A DNA stretch of 64,000 nucleotides from Sporomusa acidovorans (GTDB lineage Bacteria; Bacillota; Negativicutes; Sporomusales; Sporomusaceae): the NCBI RefSeq assembly GCF_900101845.1, contig NZ_FNAM01000010.1:62001-126000 (forward strand), read 5' to 3'. Shown here piece after piece: positions 12,243 to 30,687 of this stretch; the stretch's first letter is position 1, and each line of letters opens with the position of its first letter. The position numbers and the translations under genes were made by a program. The notes beneath the pieces are model-generated. The model searched no databases. It worked only from the letters and a program-made list of their open reading frames with translations, and was not told where the DNA came from.

Positions 12243-12244
12243 TT

Positions 12245-15294: not shown

Positions 15295-15319
15295 GTTGAA
15301 AAATAACTGTTGAGATATA

Positions 15320-15348
15320 TTGACGAGCAACAATGATCATGTTAGAAT
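15320..15348 (+). promoter_or_regulatory. Promoter for the left-end element genes
   Basis: TTGACG (15320-15325) and TAGAAT (15343-15348) are 17 bases apart. A near-palindrome AACAATGATCATGTT spans 15329-15343 between the two boxes and is a plausible operator. Confidence 0.6.
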
Positions 15349-15397
15349 TTAAATAATCACGAACATGCATACTTAAAATTTATATTGGAGGTAGTAT

Positions 15398-15856: not shown

Positions 15857-15882
15857 AAACGCCAAAATAAATGGCGTTTTTT
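15856..15882 (+). terminator. Terminator after the MerR-like gene
   Basis: AAAACGCCA (15856-15864) pairs with TGGCGTTTT (15872-15880) around a 7-base loop, ending in T residues. It isolates the first gene from the replication operon. Confidence 0.75.
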
Positions 15883-15905
15883 AAAAAAAATAACTTTTCA
15901 TAACC

Positions 15906-16196: not shown

Positions 16197-16199
16197 TAG

Positions 16200-16775: not shown

Positions 16776-16777
16776 AT

Positions 16778-18631
16778 TTGCTGGTAACGGACGCACAGAA
16801 AAAAGCAGCATTAAAGTTGTTAAAGCAGGATGAGGCAATGAAAAAAGTAACTGTTGGACAAGATAATAAATTCCATCCGGCGGACACATCAGATAAATTT
16901 GCCGAGTGGAACAAGTTGTTTTTTGGAACGCCGTATTTGGTTGAAAATGGCCGCCTGGTCCGGGTGTCAGAGGATAGAAATGGAGACAAAAAAAAGATTT
17001 GCCTTGCGAGCTTCGCCGCCAAAATCATTAAAGAAGTAGTCAGAGATAATGGCCAAGACGAGGCCACTGAATTCGTTATCGAAGGTATAACGAGCAGCGG
17101 CAGAAAGCTTAAGCGAATTCATGTCCCTACATCAAAATTTAGCTCAATGATTTGGGCAGTCGATAGTTGGGGAGCTGTCGCAAATCCCTCGCCCGGCAGT
17201 ACTATGCGCGACTATTTGCGACATGCAATTCAGTGCACGGGGGAGAGCTGCCAGCGCGAAACAATTTATGGGCACCTAGGGTGGCGCAAAATTGGAGGAA
17301 AATGGTTTTATCTGCACGGCGCCGGCGCTGTGGGGGATTTAGATGGAAAACTATCGGTCGACTTGACGCAGGATAACCTTCAACAGTACGCTTTACCGAC
17401 AGCGCCAGGTGACTATAGGTCTGCAGTACAAGCTTCACTAAAATTGTTAACAATGCAGCCGCTGGAGACTTTTTATACGTTATGGGCAACGGTGTACCTT
17501 GCGCCGTTATGTGAGCTAATGCGCTTAGGCGGGTGCGAGCCATCGTTTTTGATTTGGCTGCTTGGGCATTCCGGGGCGATGAAAAGCAGCGTGGCAGCAC
17601 TTATTTTAAATCATTTCGGGGTATTTCCGGACAAATTAGCATTGCCGGCAAATTTCAAAGACACAGCAAACATTTTGGAACGCAAGACCTTCCTTGTCAA
17701 GGATAGCCTACTTGTCGTAGATGATTTTCATCCTCCAACTAATCGAAAAGAGGAGGATCGCATGAGGGAATCCGTACAGCGGTTAAGTCGTGGCTATGGT
17801 GACCGCCATGGCCGGAGCCGAATGAATTCGGATACAACAACCAAAAAAGCGTATGTGGCGCGCGGGATGTGCCTTGTGACTGGGGAAGATTTGGGCAATA
17901 TTGGCGAGAGTGCTGGCGCGCGGCAGATTGTGGTTGAACTGAAAAAAGGCGACATTGACAGTGGGACTATGACAGCTAGACAAGGTGAGGCCAGGTGTTA
18001 TTCTTTAGCGATGAAGGGATATTTGGAGTGGTTGATTCCTCAGCTGGACAAGCTGCCTAAACAATTTAAAGAGGATTTCATCGCACTCCGACAACAGGCC
18101 GCCGATGATAGCCAGCACGCTAGAGTTGCTGAGGAAATTTCCTGGTTGTATATGGGTTTTTGCACAGGGTTGGAATTCGCCGAACAGGTAGGAGCATTGG
18201 ATTTAAAGGAAAAAGAAGCGCTGTGCCGCCAGGCTTGGAACATTTTTACCGAATTGGGTAACAAGCAAGCAGCAAAAACACGCGAAGAAAAGATAACGAC
18301 ACGTTTTGTCAGCGCCCTTCAAGAATTATTGGATTCAAAAACTGTTTGGGTGAAAAACATTCGAGGCAACAGCACCGAAGGAAATGGTCAATTTATCGGC
18401 TGGTTTGACGATAAGTTTTATTATTTGATAACAGGAACCGCATTGTCTGCAGTTGTTAAACATTATCAATCTCAAGGAGGTTTTTTTACCACAACTACTG
18501 CTACATTATTGAAGCGCTTGGCACAGGAAGAAATGATTCATTCTGAAAATGGCACCGCCAGTATGCTAAAAAAAATCGAGGGAAAAGCAGTGCGTGTGAT
18601 GTATTTGCGAAAGGAGTTTCTGAAATCCTAG
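16778..18631 (+). CDS. DUF927-like replication ATPase/helicase
   Basis: The protein has about 617 residues, starting at TTG 16778 7 bases after AGGAGG; the start follows the stop of the zinc-finger gene by 2 bases. A central P-loop reads GHSGAMKSS (near residue 265) and a Walker-B-like LLVVDDFHP follows near 310. Next come an RLSRGYGDRHGR segment and a CLVTGEDL sensor-like strand. This layout matches DUF927 superfamily replication proteins that pair with CHC2 primases. It probably unwinds the element's origin. The DNA immediately after its stop holds the first cluster of GGTAACGCC words, a possible binding array. Confidence 0.75.
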   Translation: MLVTDAQKKAALKLLKQDEAMKKVTVGQDNKFHPADTSDKFAEWNKLFFGTPYLVENGRLVRVSEDRNGDKKKICLASFAAKIIKEVVRDNGQDEATEFVIEGITSSGRKLKRIHVPTSKFSSMIWAVDSWGAVANPSPGSTMRDYLRHAIQCTGESCQRETIYGHLGWRKIGGKWFYLHGAGAVGDLDGKLSVDLTQDNLQQYALPTAPGDYRSAVQASLKLLTMQPLETFYTLWATVYLAPLCELMRLGGCEPSFLIWLLGHSGAMKSSVAALILNHFGVFPDKLALPANFKDTANILERKTFLVKDSLLVVDDFHPPTNRKEEDRMRESVQRLSRGYGDRHGRSRMNSDTTTKKAYVARGMCLVTGEDLGNIGESAGARQIVVELKKGDIDSGTMTARQGEARCYSLAMKGYLEWLIPQLDKLPKQFKEDFIALRQQAADDSQHARVAEEISWLYMGFCTGLEFAEQVGALDLKEKEALCRQAWNIFTELGNKQAAKTREEKITTRFVSALQELLDSKTVWVKNIRGNSTEGNGQFIGWFDDKFYYLITGTALSAVVKHYQSQGGFFTTTTATLLKRLAQEEMIHSENGTASMLKKIEGKAVRVMYLRKEFLKS

Positions 18632-18796
18632 GGGCTCTATGGGCGCGAAAAGACGTTACCGGCGTTACCAGACCCTGAAACTCCTTATAATTCGCGGGAT
18701 TCAGCGGTAACACCAAGGCAAAAAATGGCGTTACCGCGGCGTTACCTTTCTAGAAAATGGCGTTACCTTGCTACTAAAGGTAACGTCGGTAACGCC
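18610..18796. repeat. Word cluster A: GGCGTTACC / GGTAACGCC iterons
   Basis: Eight copies of the 9-base word or one-base variants occur in 145 bases. Forward copies are at 18652 (GACGTTACC), 18661, 18727, 18738 and 18759. Reverse copies are at 18706 (GGTAACACC), 18779 (GGTAACGTC) and 18788 (GGTAACGCC). A 10-bp inverted repeat (AAGGAGTTTC 18611-18620 and GAAACTCCTT 18677-18686) encloses the first two. The tandem at 18652-18669 is the exact reverse complement of the tandem at 27764-27781. The spacing and position after the replication ATPase suggest an origin or regulator array. Confidence 0.8.
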
Positions 18797-18848
18797 AAAA
18801 TAGGCCCCTTCTTCTAAAAAATAAAAAGCGGTGGAGGTGATAAGAAAA

Positions 18849-19208
18849 ATGTTAATGCCGGGTATTGATTTTGAAGTTAATAAGAAACCGGCTGAGCAGA
18901 ATCGCTATTCAACGGCGGAATGCGTCATAAATGCCATTTATGCTGGCACATTCAACGGTTCGGTTTTAATCAAAGTATTACCGGAATATCAGCAAGTTTT
19001 GGGCCTCGCTGTATGGGTATGTTCTAATCCGGAGACAGCCGCCCGTAAGCGGCAGGCAGAAGTTGAATTGGTTTTTACTACAGAGGAATTAAAACTTGTC
19101 GTTGAAACGGCAATGGATGGAATAGAAGAGTTGCGCTGTCTGATCGACGCGAAACGCATGTTTGGCGGCGTGATCGGCGAGGCAAAAGAAGGAAACTATG
19201 AGTTTTAA
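18849..19208 (+). CDS. Element protein of unknown function
   Basis: This is a product of about 119 residues starting at ATG 18849 behind GGTGGAGGTG. The sequence mixes beta-type and helical segments and has no motif I recognise (notable stretch: EVELVFTTEELKLVVETAMDG). It overlaps the next gene by 11 bases, so both are in one operon. It lies between the replication ATPase region and the tail module. Confidence 0.55.
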   Translation: MLMPGIDFEVNKKPAEQNRYSTAECVINAIYAGTFNGSVLIKVLPEYQQVLGLAVWVCSNPETAARKRQAEVELVFTTEELKLVVETAMDGIEELRCLIDAKRMFGGVIGEAKEGNYEF

Positions 19209-19752
19209 ACAATTCATAATAGCTCAGGGACGCCGGGATGATTCAATAGGTGATATCGCCAGGGATGTTGCGAAAGACAAGAACTTTCCGTATTCGGGTG
19301 ATCTTAAAAGTCTTATCCGATATCTGCGAAGGTGTGACGCCTGCCCGGGGGCATTGGAGGCATTGCAAAAGGCCTGTAACGAGTGGAGCAAGGAGGGGGC
19401 CATGACTGATTTAGTAGTGGCATATCGACAGGAGATTGCAAATCAGATTTATCAAGTCTGTAAGCAATGGAAACAAACAGATTTGTTGTTGACCCTTTTT
19501 GATGATAACAACCAGGCAGAAGAGAATCGCAAGATTGCAAAATTCAAGGTTCGCAAAATGATTATTAAAGCTTATCACGAATTCCAAACAGCCCATAACC
19601 TGGACAACAATACAATGGCGGAAATTCACCGCGCCTGGTGCGCATCGATCGCAAAGCAAGGGCGCGCATTAGACAGACCGCAAAATGAAATTGTGCGCGT
19701 GTTCAAGTTTTGGACTCGCGTCCCTGCCATGGCGGACAGGGGGTCAAAATAA
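19198..19752 (+). CDS. YozE SAM-like domain protein
   Basis: The 184-residue protein has an N-terminal 65-residue segment resembling the YozE sterile-alpha-motif-like fold (MSFKQFIIAQGRRDDSIGDIARDVAKD, a later FPYSGDLKSLIRYLRRC). The helical C-terminal region is of unknown function and is rich in aromatic and charged residues. YozE-like proteins recur in mobile elements of Firmicutes without a settled function. It overlaps the upstream gene by 11 bases. Confidence 0.55.
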   Translation: MSFKQFIIAQGRRDDSIGDIARDVAKDKNFPYSGDLKSLIRYLRRCDACPGALEALQKACNEWSKEGAMTDLVVAYRQEIANQIYQVCKQWKQTDLLLTLFDDNNQAEENRKIAKFKVRKMIIKAYHEFQTAHNLDNNTMAEIHRAWCASIAKQGRALDRPQNEIVRVFKFWTRVPAMADRGSK

Positions 19753-19831
19753 TGCAGGCATTGGGCAGGCCGCCGCCGGCGCCGTACTTTTCATCAAAAC
19801 ATCAATAAAATTTTGAGGGGGAAACTTACAA

Positions 19832-20557
19832 ATGGACTATTTTGACAAAAAACGAGCGATCCTTAATGATCGGATGCTTTCGGACGCTGGCAAAAAAAGC
19901 AAAATATCGGAATTGCAAAAGCAAACCCGCGAAGAATTGTTGTCAGAACAGAATATTAATAAAACACACATCGAAGCTGTTAGGGGACAAATTAATGAAA
20001 TGCGAAAATCAAAATTTGTCCGGCCTTTGCCGAAAGTGTCAATACCGAATCACGAAAGTATGGCTTCAGCAGATATCGGTATTGCTACGCTGCTTGCACA
20101 GTCTGTCGCACTGGCGGCTGAGCAGCGGTCTTTTGAAAGATTAATAACGAAGCTCTCTATGGCTGATACGGCTGATAAGTTTTTGGCTGCAGTGAGCGAT
20201 GCTATTCAAGAGAATCCGGCTGCGGTTGTAAGAGGGTTCCTGGGTATCAAGCAAGGCTTTGAGCGGTTCGACATTAATGGCACCGGTTTACGGGCACGTC
20301 TTAATCAGCTCTACAATGAAGCTTGTACTGCTGAACAGACGCCGCAAGAAAAGAAGTGGATTGCAGCAAATGCTACCAAATTGGAAGAATTGCAGCGGCG
20401 AGAAACATTATTATTTACGGAATCAATGAATATTGAACAAAACCTGCAAATACTGTCGAATGACATTAGTACCGAAAAAGGAAAGGATTGGTATTTCGGC
20501 GGCGGTAAGCAAGAAGCAAAAGAATCAGCGCCATATGGCCTGGTAATGGATGAATAA
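19832..20557 (+). CDS. Coiled-coil element protein upstream of tail chaperones
   Basis: A 241-residue protein starting at ATG 19832 behind GAGGGGG. The N-terminal 60 residues are highly charged and helical (KKRAILNDRMLSDAGKKSKIS), and the C-terminal third is again a likely coiled coil. The middle is Ala-rich. In complete siphophages this position is held by the major tail protein, but the composition does not resemble a tail tube. I do not recognise the family. Confidence 0.5.
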   Translation: MDYFDKKRAILNDRMLSDAGKKSKISELQKQTREELLSEQNINKTHIEAVRGQINEMRKSKFVRPLPKVSIPNHESMASADIGIATLLAQSVALAAEQRSFERLITKLSMADTADKFLAAVSDAIQENPAAVVRGFLGIKQGFERFDINGTGLRARLNQLYNEACTAEQTPQEKKWIAANATKLEELQRRETLLFTESMNIEQNLQILSNDISTEKGKDWYFGGGKQEAKESAPYGLVMDE

Positions 20558-20615
20558 AAAAGCTTTGAATGATTACAAAGACGTTATTTGTAAAAATATA
20601 AAGGAGTAGTGAAAT

Positions 20616-21071
20616 ATGAATGATAAAGACGAAATGAGCATTATTTTCCCGGAACGTGAGGTGGTATTATCGCAAGAAACCATAACAATTTCACCATTCC
20701 CTTTCGGGAAGTGGCCTAAGATTATCGCCTTGGCAACTGGTATTGTCGGCATTGCAATTGAAGAGTACCAAAAACATGGTGAGGCGCTATTTGATATTTC
20801 ACTAGACAATGATCGCTTCAAGATAAGTCCAGAAATTGTTAATTTTGTTATTCGCCTCTTTAGTGAGGGTGGTGATGATCTTTTAGATATCCTGGCAATC
20901 GGGGCCAATAAACCCCGGTCATGGGTGGAGGCCCTGCCGGGCGATGACGGTATGACGCTCCTTATACATGTCATGCAGGTAAACAGAGATTTTTTTTCCG
21001 GGCGGGTCCTCCCCAAATTTCCAATGCTGACGGCGGGACTCGCGACAACGATATCGGCTGGGGACAGATAA
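20616..21071 (+). CDS. Phage tail assembly chaperone, short form (gpG-like)
   Basis: The 151-residue protein resembles tail assembly chaperones placed before tape measure genes; the PRSWVEALPGDDGMTLLIHVMQ stretch split as PRSWVEALPGDD and LLIHVMQVN is typical. It is followed by an overlapping -1 frame that encodes the second chaperone part, and then by the tape measure gene. Such chaperones bind the tape measure protein while the tail tube polymerises. The frameshift site is at 20990-20996. An AAGGAG ribosome site precedes ATG 20616. Confidence 0.65.
   Translation: MNDKDEMSIIFPEREVVLSQETITISPFPFGKWPKIIALATGIVGIAIEEYQKHGEALFDISLDNDRFKISPEIVNFVIRLFSEGGDDLLDILAIGANKPRSWVEALPGDDGMTLLIHVMQVNRDFFSGRVLPKFPMLTAGLATTISAGDR
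20990..20996 (+). promoter_or_regulatory. Programmed -1 frameshift slippery site T_TTT_TTT
   Basis: In the chaperone frame the codons read GAT TTT TTT TCC at 20988-20999, so T_TTT_TTT is in the exact X_XXY_YYZ register. After a -1 slip the new frame is open with no stop to 21268, giving a fusion of about 217 residues. A G/C-rich stretch follows directly. This arrangement is standard for the G/GT chaperone pair of long-tailed phages. Confidence 0.7.
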
Positions 21072-21079
21072 TTGCCACG

Positions 21080-21268
21080 TTGTTGCATAACGGCCACAGA
21101 ATGCGTGAAATTGAACTTTACACTAAAGATCAGTTGATATTCTACTATGATGCAGCCAAAGAGCAGGAAATCGAACGGCGGACTGATTTTATTTATGCTG
21201 TACGGGCAGCCGTTTATCTGGACGGCTCCACACTCAATAGAATGATGGAAGAGCAGACCAAGAAATAA
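21080..21268 (+). CDS. Tail assembly chaperone C-terminal part (gpT-like), reached by frameshift
   Basis: This 62-codon stretch is in the -1 frame relative to the upstream chaperone and continuous with it from the slippery site at 20990-20996. There is no ribosome site before TTG 21080, so it is probably made only as the fused GT product. The residues (GHRMREIELYTKDQLIFYY and a Glu/Arg-rich helix) resemble T-domain sequences that recruit the tail tube protein. A GGGCAGGCTTT hairpin at 21284-21309 separates it from the tape measure gene. Confidence 0.6.
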   Translation: MLHNGHRMREIELYTKDQLIFYYDAAKEQEIERRTDFIYAVRAAVYLDGSTLNRMMEEQTKK

Positions 21269-21283
21269 TCAATAAAGTTGACA

Positions 21284-21309
21284 GGGCAGGCTTTCCCAAA
21301 AGCCTGCCC
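21284..21309. repeat. Hairpin between chaperone and tape measure genes
   Basis: GGGCAGGCTTT (21284-21294) pairs perfectly with AAAGCCTGCCC (21299-21309) around a 4-base loop. A-rich rather than T-rich DNA follows, so it is more likely an RNA-processing or attenuation structure than a terminator. The same GGGCAGGCT block begins the terminator at 25493. Confidence 0.7.
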
Positions 21310-21333
21310 TAAAAAGAATGGAGGTTTTTATGT

Positions 21334-24300
21334 ATGGCAGGTAAGGCGATTGTCGTAAAAATTACCGCCGACAACCAGGGCTTTGTAAAGGCTATTTTTC
21401 ATACGGTGGAGATGGCCAAGGCTGCGGAACGCGCGCTTGTTCAAGCCGGCAGCTCCGCGGGAACGGGCTTTAGCAACGCCTCAGCCAGTACCGCGGCGTT
21501 TGGCCAGACCCTGGCGAATGTGACTATCATAGCCAACGGCGTTGTTAATGTAGTCGGCAAAATCAGAGATATACTGGCGAAAGCGATTGCTCCCGGGATT
21601 GATTATACAAAACAGATGGAGTCGGCGCGTGTCGGCGTGGCCGGTATTCTGCTGTCCATGACGGAACTGAATGGCCGGCAGTTAGAACTCAATGAGGCAT
21701 TGTCTATTTCAGAACAGACTTTCGAATCACTGCAGCAGCGCTCCTTGCAATTTAATCTCAATATTAAAGATACGGCGGGCGCCTTTCAGGCTATAGTCGG
21801 GCCTGGCCTGGCGGCGCAGATGACGCTGGAGGAAATAGTTCAAATCGCTACTACCGGTACCAAGGCGGTCAAAAGTTTTGGGTTGGATTCGATGCAAGTA
21901 ATTCAAGAACTTAGAGCCATGGTTTCCGGTGACATCAATATGGACAGCCAGGTATCAAAGGCGTTGGGAATAACGGCAACAGAGGTGGCGCAGGCTAAGC
22001 AGACGGCGGGCGGGTTGTTCCAGTACCTTAATGATAAACTGAAGGGCTTTTTGCTGGTGGCCGGGGAGATCCCGAAAACCCTTGCCGGGAAAACCGACAT
22101 GCTGAATGCGGCTCTTAGCCTGGTATCGGAACAAGGATTTAAACCGCTGATTGACACGGCAAAGGCTGGCCTGGATGCAATAATTGGATATTTGACAATA
22201 ACGACCGTCAAAACCGATGAATTCGGCAAGACTATTAAAAAAGTTGAAATGAATCCGGAAGTAGTTTCAGCTTTGAAAGAGAGTTCAGAATACCTTTCCG
22301 GACTGATAAAAAGCGGTGTCAACTTTTCTGTTACCCTAGCTAAGATAGCCTCCGGTCCGGCTCCGTTGCTATTGTCTGTGATTAAGCTGATTCTTGATAA
22401 TGCCGGCCAGGTGACTTTCACATTGTTGGCATGGATGTCCATTAGCAAGCTACGGCCAATACTAGCCGATATTCTTCTGCAATTGCAGTATCAACTTTCT
22501 ATTTTTCGAATGCTGGTAGCAACGAGCGGGACTTTTAAAGCTACGCTAATAACTACAGGCACGGTCATAAAATCTCTGTTGGCTACTACCGGCTGGGGAT
22601 TACTGGCGGTTGCAATTGGCTATGCTGCCGATCAGGCGTTCAAGCTGTATGAGAATTTAAGCAAGGCCGGCAAAGCAAAAACTGACTACTTCAAGGAAAA
22701 AGAAAACATCAATTCTCCTCTACCACAGCAACTTGAAGGCAAACTGGAAAAGCCCGTATATAATGTAAATCCCGATGTAAACATGGGTTTAAAGCAAGGC
22801 ACAATGGACAAATTAGAAAAATTTATAGCTGCCATAAATTATATGTTTCCTGATAATGCTGTAACGGTTACCAGCGGATTCCGGCCAGGTGATACGGGTG
22901 GCCATGGCCGGGGCGAAAAAGCCGACATCTATGTGGCCGGCACAGAAGACCCGTTTTTCAGGCAACAGATAATGAGCCTTGCGAAAGAATTTGGGATAGC
23001 AGTGCTTGATGAAATGACCGCGCCGGCAGACCCTAGTAAAGCGGATATGTGGGGGCCGCATTTGGACTTAAATTTTTCCGAAGAAAATGACCTTAATCTT
23101 ACTGACCCGCCGCAAACAGCTAAAGAACTAAAAGAAGCGGAATTAAAATTTTTGGAAGCGCAGCGGGAAGGGATAGAAAAAGAATATATTGCCCAGCTTT
23201 CGCAGCAGGAAACAAAGCTAAAGCAGCAGTTTCAGTCCGCAGAAATCGGTGACAATGAATACTTTGAGCAAATCGGCACGATTCTAACACAAAAGGTTGT
23301 CGCGCAGATCGAAACGATTCGCGGGGAGATTGCCGATAAAACCGAGGCGATGAGCAATAAGAATTATACGGCTGCGGATAAGAAGAACATAGAGGCCGAG
23401 ATTGAGGCGTTGCTGTCTGAGATTCGCGTCAAAGAAATTGAACTGGCCGAGGCACAAAGCACGAATTCCTATGAATACCGGCAGGCTGCGCTGGAATCCA
23501 AAGATCAGGCACTGGATGCGCAAATCTTACTGCTGAAGCTGGAAGGCAACTTAGAGCAGGCGGCGCGAATGGAATTGCAGAAGTCGGAGAATGTGAAACG
23601 GCTGGCCAAGCTTGCGGCTAATAAGGCCGATCTTGCCTTGAAGGCGCAGCAGGCGTCCAATGCCGCCAGTATTATTGAAGCACAGGTTACGGATGCTACG
23701 ACTAATATTGGTTATGTTGTCAACGATATGGGCCTGGCACAGGGTAAGCTAATTCAAAGCGTCTTGGACGGGACCACTGCTGCCGGCGATTCTATCAAGC
23801 AATTTCAGGCTGATTTTGATACTAAAATCAAAACGTATGTGGACAAGCTGAATGCCGCGCTTGCCGCCGCCAAGGAAATTGGCTGGATGGCTAAAGCCCG
23901 GGAGATTGAGCAGAAATTAAGGGAAGTAAAAGGCACTGTCCTGGACTATATCACGGATTTGCTTGACGCCCTGGATAAAGCCTTGCAGCAGCAGATTGAC
24001 GCTATCAACGCTAATCTGGATTTGACGCCGCTCCAAAAAACAGATTTGATTGAGGCCGCTCAGCGGGCTACCGCGGCGAAAAAGGCGGTTGTTTATGGAA
24101 TGCAGGCAGATGCTATTTTGGCGCAGGGGAATAAAGGCGCCGAGATCATGGCAAATATTGCAGCCAATCAAGCTAATTTATCTACTGAAACATCTAAATA
24201 CGTGACAATATTAGAACAGGTACGTAAAGCTTCAAAAGACGCCTTCGAAGACGGCCTACTAACTTTTCTTACTGACGGCATAACAAAATGCGCAACTCTT

Positions 24301-24915
24301 GGAGAAGCTTTCCGGAACTTAGCGGTTACCGTATTAAGCGCTATTCAGAGGATTTATGCGCAAGCCCTGACAAAAAATATTATGGCAGCTTTGGGGTTAA
24401 CTTCACCGGTACGCCCGACAGTGAACGGAATTGCCGTACAAGGGCCGTTTAAAGCAGACGGGAGTTTCGCTACAGGCGGCAGCTTTGTCGATTCTTTCGG
24501 CGTGGTTCATGGTCCCGGTACCAGTACAAGTGACAGCATATTGGCTTACGCGCAAAAGTTCGGCAAGATCATTAATATCGGTAACGGGGAGGGCATATTA
24601 ACCGGTAGGGCGGTACAAAATCTTGGAGAAAGGGCATTGGCGGCATTGAATGATGGCGTTGACCCTAGAAAGATATTTAAAAACTATGCTACGGGTGGTT
24701 TGCTAACAGATAGGAATGTTGCCGCGATTCCCGGGCCGCAAGAACTGGCCGCTTCACTGGTTAATAACAATAGTACTACTATTCCGCTCAGTATCGCGAA
24801 TTTTATTGATCCTGGCACGATGAGCAAGTTTGTTAAATCTCGTGAAGGTAAGCGAGCTTTACTGAACTATATTAAAGAAGATGCGGGAACCATAAAACGT
24901 ATTTTAAGGATATGA
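21334..24915 (+). CDS. Phage tail tape measure protein with embedded M15 peptidase-like segment
   Basis: The 1,193-residue protein is the largest in the element. The N-terminal 330 residues match the tape measure N-terminal region (Ala/Gly-rich start, ARVGVAGILLSM, an IVQIATTGTKAVKSFG stretch). Hydrophobic helices occupy about 340-440. Residues about 485-590 carry M15-type peptidase motifs: TSGFRPG, GGHGRGEKADIYV (H-x6-D) and WGPHLDL (H-x-D). A long coiled-coil region rich in Glu, Gln and Ala covers about 600-1000, and a Gly-rich C-terminus follows. The length sets tail length in siphophages; peptidase modules help cross the cell wall. Ribosome site GGAGG precedes the ATG pair. Confidence 0.85.
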   Translation: MAGKAIVVKITADNQGFVKAIFHTVEMAKAAERALVQAGSSAGTGFSNASASTAAFGQTLANVTIIANGVVNVVGKIRDILAKAIAPGIDYTKQMESARVGVAGILLSMTELNGRQLELNEALSISEQTFESLQQRSLQFNLNIKDTAGAFQAIVGPGLAAQMTLEEIVQIATTGTKAVKSFGLDSMQVIQELRAMVSGDINMDSQVSKALGITATEVAQAKQTAGGLFQYLNDKLKGFLLVAGEIPKTLAGKTDMLNAALSLVSEQGFKPLIDTAKAGLDAIIGYLTITTVKTDEFGKTIKKVEMNPEVVSALKESSEYLSGLIKSGVNFSVTLAKIASGPAPLLLSVIKLILDNAGQVTFTLLAWMSISKLRPILADILLQLQYQLSIFRMLVATSGTFKATLITTGTVIKSLLATTGWGLLAVAIGYAADQAFKLYENLSKAGKAKTDYFKEKENINSPLPQQLEGKLEKPVYNVNPDVNMGLKQGTMDKLEKFIAAINYMFPDNAVTVTSGFRPGDTGGHGRGEKADIYVAGTEDPFFRQQIMSLAKEFGIAVLDEMTAPADPSKADMWGPHLDLNFSEENDLNLTDPPQTAKELKEAELKFLEAQREGIEKEYIAQLSQQETKLKQQFQSAEIGDNEYFEQIGTILTQKVVAQIETIRGEIADKTEAMSNKNYTAADKKNIEAEIEALLSEIRVKEIELAEAQSTNSYEYRQAALESKDQALDAQILLLKLEGNLEQAARMELQKSENVKRLAKLAANKADLALKAQQASNAASIIEAQVTDATTNIGYVVNDMGLAQGKLIQSVLDGTTAAGDSIKQFQADFDTKIKTYVDKLNAALAAAKEIGWMAKAREIEQKLREVKGTVLDYITDLLDALDKALQQQIDAINANLDLTPLQKTDLIEAAQRATAAKKAVVYGMQADAILAQGNKGAEIMANIAANQANLSTETSKYVTILEQVRKASKDAFEDGLLTFLTDGITKCATLGEAFRNLAVTVLSAIQRIYAQALTKNIMAALGLTSPVRPTVNGIAVQGPFKADGSFATGGSFVDSFGVVHGPGTSTSDSILAYAQKFGKIINIGNGEGILTGRAVQNLGERALAALNDGVDPRKIFKNYATGGLLTDRNVAAIPGPQELAASLVNNNSTTIPLSIANFIDPGTMSKFVKSREGKRALLNYIKEDAGTIKRILRI

Positions 24916-24918
24916 TAA

Positions 24919-24948
24919 TTGACGAAAAACGGCAAAAAATGGTATAGT
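24919..24948 (+). promoter_or_regulatory. Promoter of the moron gene
   Basis: TTGACG (24919-24924) and TATAGT (24943-24948) are separated by 18 bases and start immediately after the tape measure stop. This gives the following gene its own transcription. Confidence 0.6.
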
Positions 24949-24970
24949 CAAAGCAAAAAGGGTGATTTCA

Positions 24971-25477
24971 ATGAAGAAATTTATAGGTCTCTTCGTACTG
25001 GTCGTGCTATTTTGTTTAACATCGACTTCAGAGGCTAAAATATCCAGGCAATACGATTCTTTTAGTGACTATTATGGGGTATCAAGTATAGTTTCAAATA
25101 TTGGTGATTTAAACCGTATTGTATTTGCTAAAGGATACACTAAAAATTCGACTACTCCCAATTATATGCTTACTCTTGCAAAATACACTCATGATAATTG
25201 GTGGTTTTTTTCAAGTAATTTTTTAGAGATTAAGATAGGCGATGCAATAAAGTCACTTCCAGTATACCGGTCAGATAGTCAATATATTAAGGATAATGGG
25301 TATTTACCGTTTTATACGAACACGCATATTATGTTTCCTAATGAAGTGATTAGTAAACTGAAAGACGTCGACACTGTTACATTAAGAATTTATTTTGACA
25401 ATCAGCCTTCTGTTGATCTTGTTGTGCCGCAAAAAGTCCTGGCTGAATGGCAAGAGGTCATTGCTGCGGAAAAATGA
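24971..25477 (+). CDS. Secreted moron protein of unknown function
   Basis: The 168-residue product starts at ATG 24971 after AAAGGGTGA. It has a clear signal peptide (MKKFIGLFVLVVLFCLTSTSEA) and a mature part rich in Tyr, Ser and Asn with beta-strand character. It has its own promoter and a strong terminator, the hallmark of a moron inserted behind a phage tail gene. Its base composition looks more A/T-rich than the tape measure gene. It is likely expressed from the integrated element and acts at the cell surface; surface modification or superinfection exclusion are common moron roles, but none is shown here. Confidence 0.65.
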   Translation: MKKFIGLFVLVVLFCLTSTSEAKISRQYDSFSDYYGVSSIVSNIGDLNRIVFAKGYTKNSTTPNYMLTLAKYTHDNWWFFSSNFLEIKIGDAIKSLPVYRSDSQYIKDNGYLPFYTNTHIMFPNEVISKLKDVDTVTLRIYFDNQPSVDLVVPQKVLAEWQEVIAAEK

Positions 25478-25492
25478 TTGCTATGTAATGAG

Positions 25493-25538
25493 GGGCAGGC
25501 TGGCGCCGCGCGGTACGTGCACCAGCCTGCCCTTTTTT
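25493..25538 (+). terminator. Strong terminator after the moron
   Basis: GGGCAGGCTGG (25493-25503) pairs with CCAGCCTGCCC (25522-25532), followed by six T residues. The loop GCGCCGCGCGGTACGTGC can also pair in part. Confidence 0.9.
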
Positions 25539-25639
25539 GGAATTAACTCAAATAATGTGGAAGGGTTTACCAGTGCTTTCCTGGACTTTTCTGTCCGGAG
25601 GAAAAACTTGATTTAGGGTTTTTCGTTGCCCGGCAGTAA

Positions 25640-26340
25640 AAATCGCGATGCAATTTTGTATGCGTCCATGCATCTTAAAAAGTGTGCATCCGGACGCAAA
25701 AAGGGTGCAGTAGGGTGCAGCGTCCACCGTGGGGCAAATGGTAACGCGTTACTATTCGCCTTAATGGTAATGTTACCATTACTGAGGGGATTTCGTTCTT
25801 GGGGCGCTCCACTTTGGAGTGGAGCATTTTAAAGGAACGCTCCACTGTAGTACTACGGATTTGCAGAGTGTATTACTACAGTACTACACTACTTTCGGCG
25901 TGATTATCCGTGTGATTAATTGCGCGTAATGATTGCGTGATTAATTGCGTTAAGAACCAACGAACTGCGGAAATTCCGCAGTTAGAAACAAACATTGGTG
26001 TAGACGGCAAGGAACGTCCCCTCCAAGTCGATAATGTGTTGGGGAATTTCCCCACGTCTGCCCCCTGTGGGAATTCCAACACATATAAGAAGTTGGCCGA
26101 AAAAAATAAATAACCGGGAATAGTCCGGCTAGAGTACGCTTTCGGACTTAGTAGAATTACGGAAAATCCCTCCCATATCTCCCGTTCCTCCCAATCCCAG
26201 TAATGGCGCGGCTTTTTTATGGGAGGCAAATAAGAATGAATGGGAGGCAAATTTTAACCTCCCAATTACCCTCCCGTTAAGGAAGCTAGTAAATTCGCGG
26301 CATTGGGAGGTACGGGAGGAAAGGGAGGCAGTTTCGGAGG
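25640..26340. repeat. Word mosaic B: about nine adjacent short-repeat families
   Basis: No convincing gene occurs at 25478-26486. Instead distinct short words are iterated in adjacent patches. They are: GCGTCC/GATGCA and GGGTGCAG (25647-25725); GTAACGCGTTAC and AATGGTAA-TG-TTACCATT (25741-25780); GCTCCACT three times (25806-25846); TACTAC/GTAGTACTAC (25847-25892); GTGATTAATTGCG twice (25912 and 25937); AACTGCGGAA-A-TTCCGCAGTT (25963-25983); a TGTGTTGG...CCAACACA pair (26035-26083); CCGG hairpins (26114-26129); and GGGAGG/CCTCCC, about eleven copies (26169-26340). Each patch has copies in both orientations and does not share its word with the next. Confidence 0.75.
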
Positions 26341-26437
26341 TTTCCCCAAAGTCCAAAGTGGGGGGCGTGCGGAATTTGCATAAGCTCTGTAGAAATAGCT
26401 CAGTGCTTAATAATTTACGGCTTACATTTAAGCCGCA

Positions 26438-26466
26438 AAAAATAAATAGCCGGGGTTATTCCCGGC
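26438..26466 (-). terminator. Minus-strand terminator-like hairpin
   Basis: GCCGGG (26449-26454) pairs with CCCGGC (26461-26466). On the minus strand it is followed by TATTTATTTTTT (the A-rich run at 26437-26448). A similar A-run plus CCGG hairpin occurs at 26101-26129 and at 27135-27161. A separate CGGCTTA/TAAGCCG hairpin sits at 26418-26435. Confidence 0.5.
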
Positions 26467-26486
26467 CAGATCGGAGAGTGTACATC

Positions 26487-26807
26487 ATGAAAAATGAGTT
26501 GGAGCAGGTATTGTTTAGCGATAGCGACAATATGCTGGATGAACTGCAAGCGCTCATAGATTCACAACCGAAAGAATCCCGTGAGCGCAAGGCACTAATC
26601 AATCTTAGAGCATATCTAATGTTTACGACAGAGCCGGAGCAGGATTTATTGTATTCCCCTGCGTCAATGGCAGCAGCGTCCTTGCGGGCCACGGGGCTGA
26701 TAAACGACACAGGGCGGGATGAAAGCCTTACGGCACTGATATTGCAGTCGGCAATAGAGGCATGGCTTTTGGTTAATGGGCAACAGGACAAAGAAAATTT
26801 GAATTAG
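26487..26807 (+). CDS. Small acidic element protein, unknown
   Basis: ATG 26487 follows GGAGAG and gives 106 residues; a longer frame exists upstream but runs through the repeat mosaic without a ribosome site. The product is acidic and helical (MKNELEQVLFSDSDNMLDEL). No domain is recognised. It is the only plus-strand gene in the repeat-rich zone and ends just before a strong terminator at 26823. Confidence 0.5.
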   Translation: MKNELEQVLFSDSDNMLDELQALIDSQPKESRERKALINLRAYLMFTTEPEQDLLYSPASMAAASLRATGLINDTGRDESLTALILQSAIEAWLLVNGQQDKENLN

Positions 26808-26822
26808 AGAGCAGAATTTTGC

Positions 26823-26850
26823 GCTGCCCTCAATTCTGAGGGCAGCTTGA
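26823..26850 (+). terminator. Terminator after the 106-residue gene
   Basis: GCTGCCCTCA (26823-26832), loop ATTC and TGAGGGCAGC (26837-26846) form a perfect 10-bp stem followed by TTGACTTT. Confidence 0.75.
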
Positions 26851-26884
26851 CTTTACGAACACATTAACAGCCGTCCCGATCGGA

Positions 26885-27101
26885 GCCGGTTGAGGTATCC
26901 AACTTGGACACCTGTCCTGTTGTCGTTTAGGCCGGCAGCAAATTGTTATCTTTCTGACGGATAACAATGGGCTTATTGAATGAATACCCTTTGCAGGTGC
27001 AGTGGGAGTGCTCATAAAGCCTATAATGGCCAACATTCAAAATATTCATAGCTATCGTTCGGGGCGATAGCTAATTGCCGGGAACCTGGCTCCCGACAAT
27101 T
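26885..27101. repeat. Run of unrelated palindromes
   Basis: This gene-free stretch holds consecutive inverted repeats of different sequence. TCCAA-C-TTGGA is at 26898-26908 and GGACA-CC-TGTCC at 26906-26917. ATTGTTATC/GATAACAAT is at 26942-26968 and TAGCTATCG/CGATAGCTA at 27049-27073. An imperfect AATTG..CGGGA/TCCCG..CAATT pair closes it at 27073-27101. It continues the style of mosaic B: many short dyads, each different from its neighbours. Confidence 0.6.
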
Positions 27102-27134
27102 CGACAGCCAGAAACAGTTGCCCCGCCCCAGAGC

Positions 27135-27161
27135 AAAAAAAATAACCGGCGCAATGGCCGG
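27135..27161 (-). terminator. Terminator of the minus-strand coiled-coil gene
   Basis: CCGGC (27146-27150) pairs with GCCGG (27157-27161). Read on the minus strand it is followed by TTATTTTTTTT, and it lies 6 bases past that gene's stop. Confidence 0.7.
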
Positions 27162-27166
27162 GATAA

Positions 27167-27532
27167 CTACTTAACTGCTTTTAGTTGATGTATGGCTGCT
27201 TCTTGCTGGAATTGGCGGGAATTAAGGACTTCAAGCTTAGCGTTTAATTCAGCCATATCCTCTTTGGTGGCCGCTTTACCGGTTAAAACATTCAGATTGT
27301 GGCCGAGATTATGAAGCTGGGCGTTAACTTCTTCTGAGTTATGCCGGAGGCCGTGAACAATTTGGCTAATTTCAATTTGTTGGCGTTCGCTTGCCATGTC
27401 AGATTCTATCCGGTCAAGGCGTTTATTGGTTTGCTGCTGGCCTTCTTTTAGGCTTTTAATTTCTTCTTTAATGGGATTAACTTCCTCTTGAATCACAGAG
27501 CGGATGGCCTGCAATAACTCTTGATTCTCCAT
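27167..27532 (-). CDS. Coiled-coil element protein, minus strand
   Basis: The 121-residue protein is predicted to be almost wholly coiled coil: heptad-rich, Gln/Glu-rich, few aromatic residues (EEIKSLKEGQQQTNKRLDRI and later segments). It is the only gene of the element on the minus strand and has its own terminator. An AGGTAGGTG ribosome site precedes the ATG at 27532. Function is unknown; similar small coiled-coil proteins occur widely near phage lysogeny genes. Confidence 0.65.
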   Translation of the reverse strand: MENQELLQAIRSVIQEEVNPIKEEIKSLKEGQQQTNKRLDRIESDMASERQQIEISQIVHGLRHNSEEVNAQLHNLGHNLNVLTGKAATKEDMAELNAKLEVLNSRQFQQEAAIHQLKAVK

Positions 27533-27631
27533 ACTGACACCTACCTTTAAAGATATTATATCTCGCCCGGGGCGGGTAAGACAAGCAGAAACTATTGTTT
27601 GGTGTCCTGATCGGGGGCGAGAATATCAGCC

Positions 27632-27781
27632 GAGGTAACGCCATTTTAAAGAAAGGTAACGCCGAGGTAACGCCATTTTAAAGAAAGGTAACGCCGAGGT
27701 AACGCCAAAAAAATCAATGACGTTACCGGTTAAAGCCTTATGAATCAAGGACTTGTAAGAGGTGGTAACGCCGGTAACGTC
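27632..27781. repeat. Word cluster D: GGTAACGCC iterons with a 32-bp tandem
   Basis: GGTAACGCC occurs at 27634, 27655, 27666, 27687, 27698 and 27764, with GACGTTACC at 27719 and GGTAACGTC at 27773. The first five are in a 32-base unit present about 2.3 times (27632-27706, word spacing alternately 21 and 11 bases). The last tandem (27764-27781) is the reverse complement of 18652-18669 in cluster A. The position just upstream of the excisionase-like gene and 9 kb from cluster A suggests two arms of one origin or a control site. Confidence 0.8.
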
Positions 27782-28001
27782 ATATGCAGGTATATAACCC
27801 CCTTAGAGAAAAATAAAAAACAGTAAAAATACTAAAATGTGTTTCCTCCACGTGGACATGCTGTAAAAATTGGAAATTATCAAGGGTTATGGTCCTGATA
27901 ATTATTGCCTTGAAGGAATAAAAGGCTGGGGAGTATTGATTTTACTGGGGTTGTGGGAATTTATAATTTTTATGTCCGATAATATCTCTTATGACAACTA
28001 C
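27782..28001. other. AT-rich spacer with two dyads
   Basis: No coding sequence is evident. TCCACGTGGA (27847-27856) is a perfect palindrome, and AATTATCA/TGATAATT (27875-27903) is an inverted repeat with a 13-base loop. The rest is AT-rich DNA that could melt next to cluster D. Confidence 0.45.
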
Positions 28002-28050
28002 ATATAGTTTAATATAATTATTGACACTTAGATATAGTTAAATATATAAT
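28002..28050 (+). promoter_or_regulatory. Promoter and operator repeats before the xis-like gene
   Basis: TTGACA (28021-28026) and TATAAT (28045-28050) are 18 bases apart. The 15-base ATATAGTTTAATATA (28002) and ATATAGTTAAATATA (28032) differ at one base and lie 30 bases apart on either side of the -35 box, so a regulator could bind both on one DNA face. Confidence 0.65.
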
Positions 28051-28082
28051 ATAGCTATAGAATATATAAAGGGGGTGAATTC

Positions 28083-28286
28083 TTGGTTTTAGAATCAGTA
28101 TATACGCCAAAAGAACTAGCGGAATTATTAAAAGTGTCTGAACAAGTTATTGCTGATGAACTAAAATCTGGTCGACTTGTAGGTTTTAAAGTTGGCCGTC
28201 AGTGGCGTATATCAGAAATCAGTGTAAGGGAATATATCAAAGCGAATACTTGTAAACCTATTGCGGAAGAGCTAGACACTGATTAA
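28083..28286 (+). CDS. xis: Excisionase-like helix-turn-helix protein
   Basis: The 67-residue protein has a compact excisionase/MerR winged helix: YTPKELAELLKVSEQVIADEL followed by GRLVGFKVGRQWRISEISVREYI, split here by the turn. The start is TTG 28083 behind AAGGGGGTG. It is 1.1 kb upstream of the integrase. It is a candidate recombination directionality factor or repressor; the other excisionase-like protein at the left end is the alternative. Confidence 0.7.
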   Translation: MVLESVYTPKELAELLKVSEQVIADELKSGRLVGFKVGRQWRISEISVREYIKANTCKPIAEELDTD

Positions 28287-28295
28287 AAATCAAAG

Positions 28296-28386
28296 GGCCT
28301 GCCGGTGTTAACGCCACCGAACAGGCCAAGCAGTCAGGAAACCTTTACAGAACCCTGCCGCCCTTTCATTCTATCAGGCGGCGGGA
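28296..28386. ncRNA. Structured leader with two hairpins
   Basis: GGCCTG (28296-28301) pairs with CAGGCC (28322-28327), with inner CGGTG/CACCG. A second stem, CCGCC/GGCGG, lies at 28358-28381. The region precedes the 48-residue gene and may be a regulatory leader or a small RNA. The loop holds GTTAACGCC, near the cluster A/D word. Confidence 0.4.
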
Positions 28387-28416
28387 GAACAGTCAAATGA
28401 TAGGAGGAAAAGCTTT

Positions 28417-28563
28417 ATGAAACGTATCAAAAAGACCATGTCCATTGATTATGAGGGACGTACTGCTTCATTTACATTTCAATGCCACATGCCTCATTTA
28501 ACCCCCAGAGAACAGGCGAGAGTCGTTAAGAAATTACTTCTCGTATTGGTGAACAAGCCATGA
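28417..28563 (+). CDS. 48-residue element protein
   Basis: ATG 28417 follows AGGAGG by 9 bases, and the frame runs to TGA at 28561-28563, overlapping the next start (ATGA). The product is basic at both ends (MKRIKKTMSIDYEGR and ARVVKKLLLVLVNKP) with a central FTFQCHMPHL. No family is recognised. The good ribosome site and coupling make it a credible small gene. Confidence 0.6.
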   Translation: MKRIKKTMSIDYEGRTASFTFQCHMPHLTPREQARVVKKLLLVLVNKP

Positions 28564-28748
28564 CCGACTTTAAGCGCGAACGGCTTAACTGGTACATAGG
28601 CGATGCCGAACAATTTTTGACCACAATTCAAAAAATCTTGCAGTACCCGGAAACTCCTGCACAGGCGGCAGCGGCCAGCATGACTAGGGCGGCAATTGAA
28701 CTGGTGGCCGGCATTAAGCAGCAAATGAAAATTGATGGGGGCGTGTGA
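28560..28748 (+). CDS. 62-residue element protein
   Basis: The start overlaps the stop of the 48-residue gene (ATGA) and the gene ends 1 base before the next ATG. The helical product (FKRERLNWYIGDAEQFLTTI) has no recognised domain. The tight packing of three small genes points to one operon made before or together with the integrase. Confidence 0.55.
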   Translation: MTDFKRERLNWYIGDAEQFLTTIQKILQYPETPAQAAAASMTRAAIELVAGIKQQMKIDGGV

Positions 28749-28749
28749 T

Positions 28750-29151
28750 ATGGATAAAAAGCAGTATCGTATAGAAATGTTGCAATCAGAGAGCATTGCG
28801 GAAAAGCATAAACGGGCCGTAAGGCGTGCCGGGCGGCTATACCGTCAATTATCGGCAGATCTAACGGCAGGGCAGCTCCAGCAGCTAAACATTTTAATGG
28901 AATGCTGGGACACAGGGTTAGCTATTTTAGATGAACTGCCCGGCGCTATTTTAAGAGAGCGAATAGAACCGTTAACGATTAATTATGCCTTGATTGTTAC
29001 TAAGAGCGAATCAGGGCAAGTTATATCACATATTGCGAATGTAGGGACGCTCAAGCCTTTAGAAGTAAAAAGAGCTATGACTAATGCCAAAATGATTGCC
29101 GGTGATAAATTTCGGCTGGCGGTGAAGCTATTACCGTTTGCTGCTGGCTGA
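28750..29151 (+). CDS. 133-residue element protein
   Basis: ATG 28750 lies 9 bases after GGGGG. The product is helical and basic in the N-terminal half (KHKRAVRRAGRLYRQL) with a more beta-rich C-terminus. No domain is recognised. It is the last gene of a three-gene cluster and its stop is followed directly by word cluster E. Confidence 0.55.
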   Translation: MDKKQYRIEMLQSESIAEKHKRAVRRAGRLYRQLSADLTAGQLQQLNILMECWDTGLAILDELPGAILRERIEPLTINYALIVTKSESGQVISHIANVGTLKPLEVKRAMTNAKMIAGDKFRLAVKLLPFAAG

Positions 29152-29172
29152 GTGTTGGGGCGGGATAGCCTG

Positions 29173-29278
29173 TTGCGGAGACTTAGCGGAGATATTAAAT
29201 AATGTTGCTCCGCAAGTATCTCCGCACTGCCAGCCCAGTAACAGCGCTGCTTTGCGGAGATGCGGAGACAGCGGAGCC
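29173..29278. repeat. Word cluster E: GCGGAGA repeats before int
   Basis: GCGGAGA or its complement appears at 29175, 29186, 29218 (ATCTCCGC), 29254 and 29262, with variants at 29207 (GCTCCGCAA) and 29271 (GCGGAGCC). TTGCGGAG (29173) pairs with CTCCGCAA (29208) and GCGGAGAT (29186) pairs with ATCTCCGC (29218), an interleaved order that could form a pseudoknot in RNA. It occupies the gap between the small-gene operon and the integrase. Confidence 0.75.
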
Positions 29279-29354
29279 GTTTTTTGTTCTCTATTTGGTG
29301 GTAAGCGTGCTAGGATGGGAAGTTTTAATTTAAAACAGATTGGGAGGGGTTATT

Positions 29355-30500
29355 ATGGCAAAGGAACGCCGGGAAAACGGCGCAGGCACTAAACCTAAAC
29401 AACTTGCTAACGGTAAGTGGTGGAAAAAGATTAGTTACACGGATAACTATGGCAATAAAGGTAGAAAGAATATTTACGGCAATTCAGAAGCGCAATGCAA
29501 GGCCAATGAAAAAACCTTTCTAAAAGAGCTTGCGGACGGCCTTAAAGCAGCAACGGACATAAAGACGCTAGGGCAATGGCTTACTAAGTGGCTGGAGGTA
29601 TATAAGAAGCCTCCTATATCAGAAATTACAACCTATGCAGCATATGAACACCAGATTAACCAGCATATTATTCCAGAACTTGGCGATAGCCAGCTTAAAA
29701 AACTTCAAAGAGTACACATCCAAGAGTTTTTTAATAAAAAAGGTGAGAAGCTATCACCAAGCACACTTAAACTAATAAAAGCCATATTAAATGACGCCTT
29801 AAATATGGCGGTTGTGGACGGTTATATAACCAAGAATCCCTTAGTCAAGATAGCGCTACCAACTCCAGAGGCAAAAAAGATTAAGCCTTTGGTTAAAGAT
29901 GAAATTGTTAAGCTGTTAAAAGCTGCTGAGGGTAGTCCCTTTTATACGATAATTTACCTAGCCATTCATACCGGAGCAAGAAAGGGAGAGCTGGCAGCGC
30001 TTACATGGGATGATATAGATTTTAAAGCCAAAAAGATTCATATTCAGCATAGTGTGAAGTATGATCGGGCAAATAGAAAGTTTATTATAGGCAGCACTAA
30101 GACCGATGGACATAGGTCTATTCCCATACATGCTACTGTGCTTGCCGAACTAAAGAAGCATAAGGCCAAGCAGGCGGCCGAGAAATTAGAGCTAGGGGAC
30201 GCATATGAAAAGAATAATCTGGTGTTTGCTAAGCCTACAGGGGAAATCTTATCCCTGACAGTCCTTGCATCTAAATTCAATGCTATTGTTAAGGAATCAG
30301 GAATAGAACGCCGGACATTTCACGATTTGCGGCATACCTTTGCCAGCATATGCATATCCCGGAAGGAGAATGTAAAAGCACTGTCCGAATACCTTGGTCA
30401 TTCAAATGTTGGCATTACCTATAATACTTATGGTCACTTGATGCCCGGAGATAAGGAGAGCATAGCCAACGCAATAACGGCTTATTTAGCAGGCGAATAG
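29355..30500 (+). CDS. int: Tyrosine recombinase (integrase)
   Basis: The 381-residue protein starts at ATG 29355 after GGGAGGGG. An N-terminal AP2-like arm-binding segment (about 5-55, KWWKKISYTDNYGNKGRK), a core-binding SAM-like domain (about 65-145) and the catalytic domain (about 165-375) are in the standard order. The active-site residues are visible: Arg in HTGARKGELAAL, Lys in STKTDGHRSIP, His and Arg in HDLRHTFAS, His in LGHSNVGITYNTYGHL, and Tyr in the same block. It recombines the att core at 15173/30645. It reads toward attR, ending 144 bases before it. Confidence 0.95.
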   Translation: MAKERRENGAGTKPKQLANGKWWKKISYTDNYGNKGRKNIYGNSEAQCKANEKTFLKELADGLKAATDIKTLGQWLTKWLEVYKKPPISEITTYAAYEHQINQHIIPELGDSQLKKLQRVHIQEFFNKKGEKLSPSTLKLIKAILNDALNMAVVDGYITKNPLVKIALPTPEAKKIKPLVKDEIVKLLKAAEGSPFYTIIYLAIHTGARKGELAALTWDDIDFKAKKIHIQHSVKYDRANRKFIIGSTKTDGHRSIPIHATVLAELKKHKAKQAAEKLELGDAYEKNNLVFAKPTGEILSLTVLASKFNAIVKESGIERRTFHDLRHTFASICISRKENVKALSEYLGHSNVGITYNTYGHLMPGDKESIANAITAYLAGE

Positions 30501-30521
30501 CCTGCTTATTTCATGTATTTA

Positions 30522-30545
30522 CTGGACAGTTTTTTGGACAGTTAG
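30522..30545 (+). other. Right arm-type recombinase site
   Basis: This is identical to 15271-15294: two TGGACAGTT copies separated by TTT. It starts 22 bases after the integrase stop and ends 99 bases before attR. Confidence 0.7.
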
Positions 30546-30632
30546 CATTATTTACAGTTAATTAACATTAAGCGTAATTGTGCAAGAAGCTAGTAAAATT
30601 AAGCATATTTGGGTATAGTTAATCATAAAAAA

Positions 30633-30687
30633 TTAAGAAAAAAATAACAAGATATTAACATTCGTCTCCCTGTTTTTGTGGTATATT
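30633..30687 (+). promoter_or_regulatory. pstB promoter: Pho box overlapping attR
   Basis: Three hexamers at 11-base steps, TTAAGA (30633), ATAACA (30644) and TTAACA (30655), are followed 21 bases later by TATATT (30682-30687). The second half lies in the att core and the first hexamer comes from the element end. The same layout (last TTAACA about 20 bases before the -10) is seen before pstS and pstC, which supports its role as the PhoP-activated promoter of pstB-phoU. Confidence 0.75.
30645..30666 (+). other. attR core, right 22-bp direct repeat
   Basis: It is identical to 15173-15194. The sequence after it is the native pstB promoter region, so this is the element's right junction. Confidence 0.85.

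Follow-up and report, generated by a model that had tools for sequence, protein, structure and literature searches.

P4, the cos-type SaPIs, and the PICIs travel in the particles of helper phages, and their packaging takes place via a shared recognition site (the helper's pac or cos). To our knowledge, the satellites known so far have one or two types of site, their own TerS, or a terminase adaptor. In lambda, the R sites of cosB are several copies of a short site, which are bound by the helix-turn-helix of TerS and are located beside the terminase genes. The ori1 and crr iterons of P4 form two separate arrays of one iteron, one of them beside the helicase gene. TerS binds the start site, in some phages within its own gene, and packaging starts there, as described in PMC9611059 and PMC7672466. 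As proposed in PMC7672466, a pair of TerS helix-turn-helix motifs together grips about 20 bp; such a mode of binding would suit palindromes.

The window, the whole 64,000-nt stretch of Sporomusa acidovorans DNA that was analysed, belongs to a genome of 6.0 Mb in 126 contigs. It includes an integrated element of 15,494 bp (15173..30666). Like P4, the cos-type SaPIs, and the PICIs (see also PMC6893505, PMC5052747, and PMC6739421), this is an integrated element of small size that encodes an integrase and replication genes of its own. Unlike them, it has about seven different TerS-type words in one stretch (within 25640-26340). Judging from sequence comparisons, we think it likely that in this stretch a phage satellite holds a library of packaging addresses, which would serve for several helper phages. 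The wider proposition, a satellite whose library of terminase words is meant for many unrelated helpers together with a general TerS code (the PF10668 recognition helix predicts the palindrome in its own terS gene), we hold with somewhat less assurance, as moderately probable.

The integrated element

The element has a 22-bp repeat, TAACAAGATATTAACATTCGTC, at both ends (15173-15194 and 30645-30666) and a second end repeat, CTGGACAGTTTTTTGGACAGTTAG, at 15271 and 30522. On one side it is flanked by a response-regulator gene and on the other by an ABC-transporter ATPase gene, which we take to be pstB. The attachment repeat resembles a Pho box (TTAACA-type repeats), and the element seemingly sits in a phosphate-control site near phosphate control/transport-like genes, with the site restored on both sides.

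The genes described here are all on the plus strand. At the left end are found a MerR-like regulator (15398-15856; match below the Pfam cutoff), an HTH_17 excisionase-like gene (15906-16196; profile match), a CHC2 primase domain protein (16200-16775; domain match), and a helicase-like protein (16745-18631), which matches no Pfam or PHROGs family and has relatives in other elements. A set of three tail genes follows (20616..25477), whose relatives are found on prophage loci. It consists of a tail assembly chaperone (20616-21071; phrog_1442, E 1.7e-20), a tape measure-like protein (21334-24915), and a putative secreted protein (24962-25477), relatives of which are encoded at five of the tape-measure loci. 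The tape measure-like protein is named from its relatives; it is 42% identical over its full length to a protein of genome G014 and 26.5% identical over 18% to an annotated tape measure protein. Behind the tail genes lies a hairpin followed by a T-run (25493..25532, plus strand; 14-nt arms, 93% complementary). A second HTH_17 excisionase-like gene (28086..28286; profile match) and a tyrosine integrase (29355..30500; PF00589 and phrog_1) are found toward the right end.

By this anatomy the element looks like a phage satellite, and it would depend on a helper. It combines a site-specific integrase and flanking att repeats with what appears to be its own replication module (CHC2 primase, helicase relatives, and an iteron array as candidate origin) and an incomplete set of particle genes. 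Sixteen element frames were scanned in Pfam, PHROGs, or both, ORFs of less than 80 codons being mostly left out; one of the 16, the tail chaperone, matches a PHROGs structural family, and no capsid, portal, or terminase gene is found among the element proteins scanned. In the genome itself, phrog_2 finds no large terminase, a TerS query finds only an 87-codon remnant, and no intact helper phage is seen. An element with a tail chaperone, a tape measure-like protein, a further tail-region gene, and no other particle genes found possibly sets or swaps the tail length of its helper.

Word patches and origin-like arrays

An earlier note on this DNA had described a mosaic of short repeated words at 25640-26340. 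A k-mer count against shuffled sequence confirms it, the repeats being far above chance, and the words are located where the note had placed them. Within these 701 nt there are 24 direct and 24 inverted pairs of 8-mers no more than 100 nt apart, while 300 dinucleotide shuffles give means of 1.2 and 1.1 (maxima 7 and 7). The inverted count is matched by none of 181 window tiles and the direct count by three. The sole ORF of at least 80 codons inside the stretch (25876-26250, minus strand) matches no Pfam or PHROGs family.

Seven neighbouring patches at 25658-26082 are made of palindrome-like words. The GCGTCC/GGGTGCAG words, read before as a single patch, actually form two. Patch 1a (25658..25693) is GGATGCATCC-like, with the copies GTATGCGTCC, CATGCATC, and GTGTGCATCC, and patch 1b (25703..25722) is GGGTGCA-like, with two copies of GGGTGCAG at 10-nt spacing that resemble half sites of GGGTGCACCC. 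Patch 2 (25740..25777) has GGTAACGCGTTAC and GGTAATGTTACC and is also similar to the element's own GGTAACGCC iteron. Patch 3 (25801..25843) has GGGGCGCTCC, GGAGTGGAGC, and GGAACGCTCC; patch 4 (25847..25887) has GTAGTACTAC, GTATTACTAC, and AGTACTAC; and patch 5 (25898..25949) has two copies of GTGATTAATTGCG and two partial ones. Patches 6 and 7 (25963..26082) are GGGAATTCCC-like, with AACTGCGGAAATTCCGCAGTT, GGAACGTCCC, GGGGAATTTCCCC, and GTGGGAATTCCAACAC, the actual form being odd-centred in patches 6 and 7a. The statement that neighbouring patches share no word fails for the AACTGCGGAA and TGTGTTGG patches, which have the common core GGAA(N)TTCC. Copies within patches are spaced by 10-33 nt and do not keep the two-turn spacing of terS genes (21-22 nt).

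The last two words of the earlier list, CCGG and GGGAGG, are present and turn out to be of other kinds. CCGG belongs to a terminator-like repeat on the minus strand (26096..26130), which has a second copy at 26432 (84% over 31 nt). GGGAGG forms a double cassette (26169..26329) with an architecture unlike that of the other patches, inverted iterons being placed around two 28-29-nt spacers. A cassette with the word CGGAGA (29175..29276, just upstream of the integrase) has the same layout, and the spacers of both share a core with the spacer of the GGTAACGCC origin in L039, the sister element. The core alignment scores of L039 against GGGAGG and of CGGAGA against GGGAGG are each reached by none of 2000 shuffles. 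With a layout and a spacer core shared with L039 and the CGGAGA cassette, the GGGAGG patch is, in sequence terms, an origin-like cassette with a changed iteron word; its inverted iterons flank what appears to be the core of the helicase-adjacent arrays.

The element's own GGTAACGCC iterons are found in an origin-like array at 18652..18796, directly 3' of the helicase gene, in both orientations and with a 36-nt spacer between inverted iterons. An iteron search finds a second GGTAACGCC array at 27634..27781. Like P4 with ori1 and crr, the element has two separate arrays of one iteron, one of them beside the helicase gene; unlike P4, it has two further arrays with other iteron words sharing an origin core. 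One element has in this way four origin-like arrays (18652-18796, 27634-27781, 26169-26329, and 29175-29276) with three iteron words, and some of the cores are related.

Arrays are also found behind some related helicase genes. L039, whose helicase is 63% identical, has the word GGTAACGCC, and other words are found in L011 (GGTAACGCA), L012 (GGAAACGCC), L018 (GGTGGGCAA), and L020 (GATGTGTC). A scan for helicase-adjacent arrays flagged five of 36 loci, the latter four and L022, in which the repeats look longer and different. The 31 loci not flagged include the helicase relatives in contig C29 of this genome and in genome G004. Scans with single proteins gave no match.

TerS genes and their linker palindromes

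A DNA search with 25640-26340 in 60 genomes finds the stretch itself and 13 short weak places, five of which were inspected. The places in genomes G014 and G057 lie in terS genes; those in G052 (contig C18), G003, and G036 are other coding sequence by our own reading and were dropped as chance. The two terS genes are on the same contigs as the two best relatives of the tape measure-like protein, and they match patch 2. In six prophage loci, three different palindromes occur in the terS linkers, present two or three times: GGTAACGTTACC, GGAGCGCTCC, and GGGTGCACCC, which resemble three neighbouring patches of the stretch. A class-wide search finds TerS relatives in 23 of 380 genomes, and genomes of the same genus have terS genes carrying GGTAACGTTACT, GGAGCGCTCC, GTGATTAATCAC, and GGAGTACTCC; patch 5 resembles the GTGATTAATCAC of such a gene.

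In many phage terS genes, two or three copies of one palindrome exist in the linker behind the DNA-binding helix, and the word varies by phage. A TerS catalogue was built from two IMG/VR scans (the best 80 of 395 and the best 80 of 207 relatives) and 14 phage records. It holds 150 distinct segments after merging of identical ones; most are linker, and some are not, as the gene start could not be placed. A repeated palindrome is found in many segments and is absent in many others. The 12 word classes are GGTAACGTTACC, GGAGCGCTCC, GGGTGCACCC, GTGTGCACAC, GTTGTACAAC, GGAGTACTCC, GGAACGTTCC, GGATGCATCC, GCAACGTTGC, GGTTGCAACC, TGATTAATCA (one TerS lineage), and CGAACGTTCG. Two catalogue TerS scanned by profile both match PF10668, and a sequence search found no solved structure.

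The word follows the DNA-binding domain. Among the 160 TerS whose word is clear, which have 107 distinct DNA-binding domains (one repeat protein that is not TerS is included in the TAGTACTA class), the residues before the tryptophan at the helix end track the palindrome: RKW is found with TAACGTTA and GAGCGCTC, SNW, SAW, or SVW with TAGTACTA, AVW with TTGTACAA, RGW or RAW with GAACGTTC, KSW with GTGCAC, RSW with CAACGTTG, and SGW with GAGTACTC. The nearest relative at less than 80% identity has the same word in 85 of 107 cases if chosen by the DNA-binding domain and in 29 of 107 if chosen by the C-terminal part (permuted labels: mean 17.6, maximum 32). At less than 65% identity the numbers are 47 and 13, with a permutation maximum of 35. 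In the loci of the TerS scans, leaving aside those found with GTAGTACTAC, 50 of 68 copy spacings are 21-22 nt, and 29 of these are 22 nt, which is no codon multiple. With the TerS loci of GTAGTACTAC added, 71 of 89 are 21-22 nt, the search pattern for these loci having limited the spacing to 18-48. Since word and recognition helix vary together and most copies are separated by two helical turns, the linker palindromes are very probably TerS binding sites, as far as sequence can tell.

This arrangement is similar to the pac sites of the P22/SPP1 group, in which TerS recognizes a sequence within the terS gene or close to it (PMC9611059). The P22 pac is a 22-bp asymmetric sequence, whereas the present sites are two or three palindromes, in most cases separated by two turns, and their word varies along with the recognition helix. 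As in lambda cosB, several copies of a short site, presumably for the TerS helix-turn-helix, are located near terminase genes; unlike in cosB, the sites are palindromic and lie in the coding linker of terS. Both pac-type and cos-type packaging are possible. By eye, hybrid sites, half GGAGCG and half CGTTAC, are seen in some terS genes (L227, L225, and L217) and in the sister element L039 at 10756.

The 12 catalogue words were compared with 25640-26160, taking all 1024 palindromic 10-mers as background. At two or fewer mismatches nine of the 12 are found in the stretch against 2.5 expected (P=8e-5), and at one or fewer three are found against 0.3 expected (P=0.003); these statistics are approximate, as catalogue words that resemble each other do not count independently. 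If the word that first pointed to TerS is left out, eight of 11 are found at two mismatches (P=0.0003) and two of 11 at one (P=0.03). None of 239 other window tiles has more than five words at two mismatches or more than one at one mismatch, 300 shuffles of the stretch reach at most seven words within two mismatches, and none of 2000 palindrome sets with permuted halves does as well as the catalogue. GTAGTACTAC of the stretch matches a terS word exactly, and most of the others have one or two mismatches. Among 478 records (2.94 Mb), four words within 300 nt at one or fewer mismatches are found only at this place (present in three records), and three words at three other places. The two-mismatch count over these records is inflated by similar words (142 records have six or more) and was not used.

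Pairs of a word were also searched in the 2.9 million viral contigs of IMG/VR. A ranking of all palindromes in the stretch places GTAGTACTAC, the word of patch 4, first and GGGAATTCCC second. GTAGTACTAC, which was absent from the catalogue at the time, is found as a pair in 47 stretches; 29 of them (25 distinct) are in the TerS helix-linker where the other words sit, and 18 are elsewhere, by eye many of them in repetitive coding sequence. In 379 genomes from the class of the host the exact GTAGTACTAC pair does not occur, and the phages known to use it may therefore infect other hosts; a decoy palindrome is likewise absent from these genomes. For patches 6 and 7, the odd-centred pair GGAANTTCC, which serves as a rough control for the pair searches, is at no TerS gene among the at least 120 stretches listed; two of the matches listed loosely fit a TerS motif, and neither is TerS by eye. 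GGGAATTCCC was the second try for these patches. Nine of its 27 stretches lie with terS genes from two other families (five of the phrog_83/PF05119 type and four of the phrog_57 type), either at the gene start or 140 nt ahead of it. Three (L486, L498, and L512) were checked by profile and six by a shared motif, and by eye they make up about five lineages; any additional terS families among the other 18 stretches would escape the motif search.

Possible functions of the stretch

The interpretation given in the earlier note is partly supported. Its collection of binding sites agrees with seven patches that match TerS-tied words, some closely and some at two mismatches. Its modular replication/packaging region fits the combination of seven apparent TerS-word patches with one origin-like cassette, similar in its core to the origins of the element family itself. 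If the stretch is a packaging-address library, the TerS of an active helper would bind whichever patch bears its word, the bound TerS would recruit the large terminase, and replicated satellite DNA would be packed into the head of that helper. With several words, a larger number of helpers would be usable. The satellite probably replicates from its own iteron origins, and the tail chaperone, tape measure-like protein, and secreted protein that it brings along belong to the same phage type. The GGGAGG patch could be one more origin-like cassette, possibly for the initiator of a related element. Several points speak against a library: the matches are imperfect, with only three of 12 words at one mismatch; the spacing within patches is not that of terS genes; the exact GTAGTACTAC pair is absent from the 379 class genomes; the apparent users of GGGAATTCCC belong to other TerS families, and the odd-centred form of patches 6 and 7a is at no TerS gene among the stretches listed; this genome shows no large terminase by phrog_2; patch 2 is also like the element's own iteron; and no second array of several words is known.

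The same TerS-word matches are consistent with a decoy (sponge), in which the patches bind helper TerS and blunt helper packaging to the benefit of the host or the satellite, with no use in packaging. Sites that are imperfect and not natively spaced would be as suitable for titration as for packaging starts. However, some fifteen weak sites would titrate little and sequestration usually needs strong sites, and we regard a decoy as unlikely. It is very unlikely that the stretch is a series of replication origins taken over from related or competing elements. The GGGAGG patch and the CGGAGA cassette share their core with the GGTAACGCC origin of L039, and some related helicase genes have arrays with other words (GGAAACGCC, GGTGGGCAA, and GATGTGTC), but the other patches are palindrome-like, lack by eye the core and the phased-iteron layout, and have words that point to terS genes. 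Captured origin words, as the earlier note had put it, may apply to the GGGAGG patch and the CGGAGA cassette (29175-29276) only, and for patches 1-7 this origin is disfavoured.

A neutral scar, that is, terS fragments left by recombination with passing phages and without present function, has a still smaller chance of being right. Patch 2 reads SNGNITIKANSNAL on the minus strand, like the TerS linker NGNAVTIPNSNVT, and the sites are degenerate; yet random debris would not be expected to pack seven different words into 425 nt and leave so little else of terS to be seen. The least probable is a large structured non-coding RNA, whose stems would mimic inverted words. The predicted folds are strong (z -7.5 on the plus and -10.8 on the minus strand, 20 shuffles each), but both strands fold, which is expected of any palindrome-rich DNA, and the words are present as direct repeats too. 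No Rfam family reaches threshold in the stretch, and there are no homologues for a covariation test. Such an RNA is not preferred, since both strands fold strongly and no Rfam match is found.

Only one close relative of the element was found, the sister element L039, and its patch consists of a single word. Five of its 11 GGAGCG/CGCTCC words are within 51 nt at 10711-10761, inside a 111-codon ORF; as a comparable array this cluster is suggestive only. Other arrays of several words were looked for in further ways. Exact GTAACGTTAC near GGAGCGCTCC is absent from the viral contigs, a pattern that the stretch itself would not match. Applied to 11 other records and the window, a palindrome-cluster detector picked up three clusters of unrelated words in the former and none in the latter, the stretch itself being missed. 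A word search at one mismatch in 19 other element records gave two chance-like pairs. By title and the start of the abstract, no literature was found on a satellite with several packaging words or on a rule from TerS helix to word, subscription journals and preprints being largely outside this search.

If the general TerS code holds, packaging specificity could be read from sequence, and a multi-word satellite would explain how a single parasite passes between hosts without a common helper. A family in which the site is shown by many of the terS genes themselves, with a helix-to-word rule, makes this directly testable and might allow helper and satellite to be matched by sequence.

Two further non-coding features are found in the window. 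A similar non-coding stretch exists in three copies, at 28283-28415 and in L041 at 10595-10730 and 12170-12300 (minus), with 67% mean column identity; it has inverted repeats and is perhaps a small RNA of these elements. At 439-608 there is an M-box magnesium riboswitch (RF00380, 155.5 bits).
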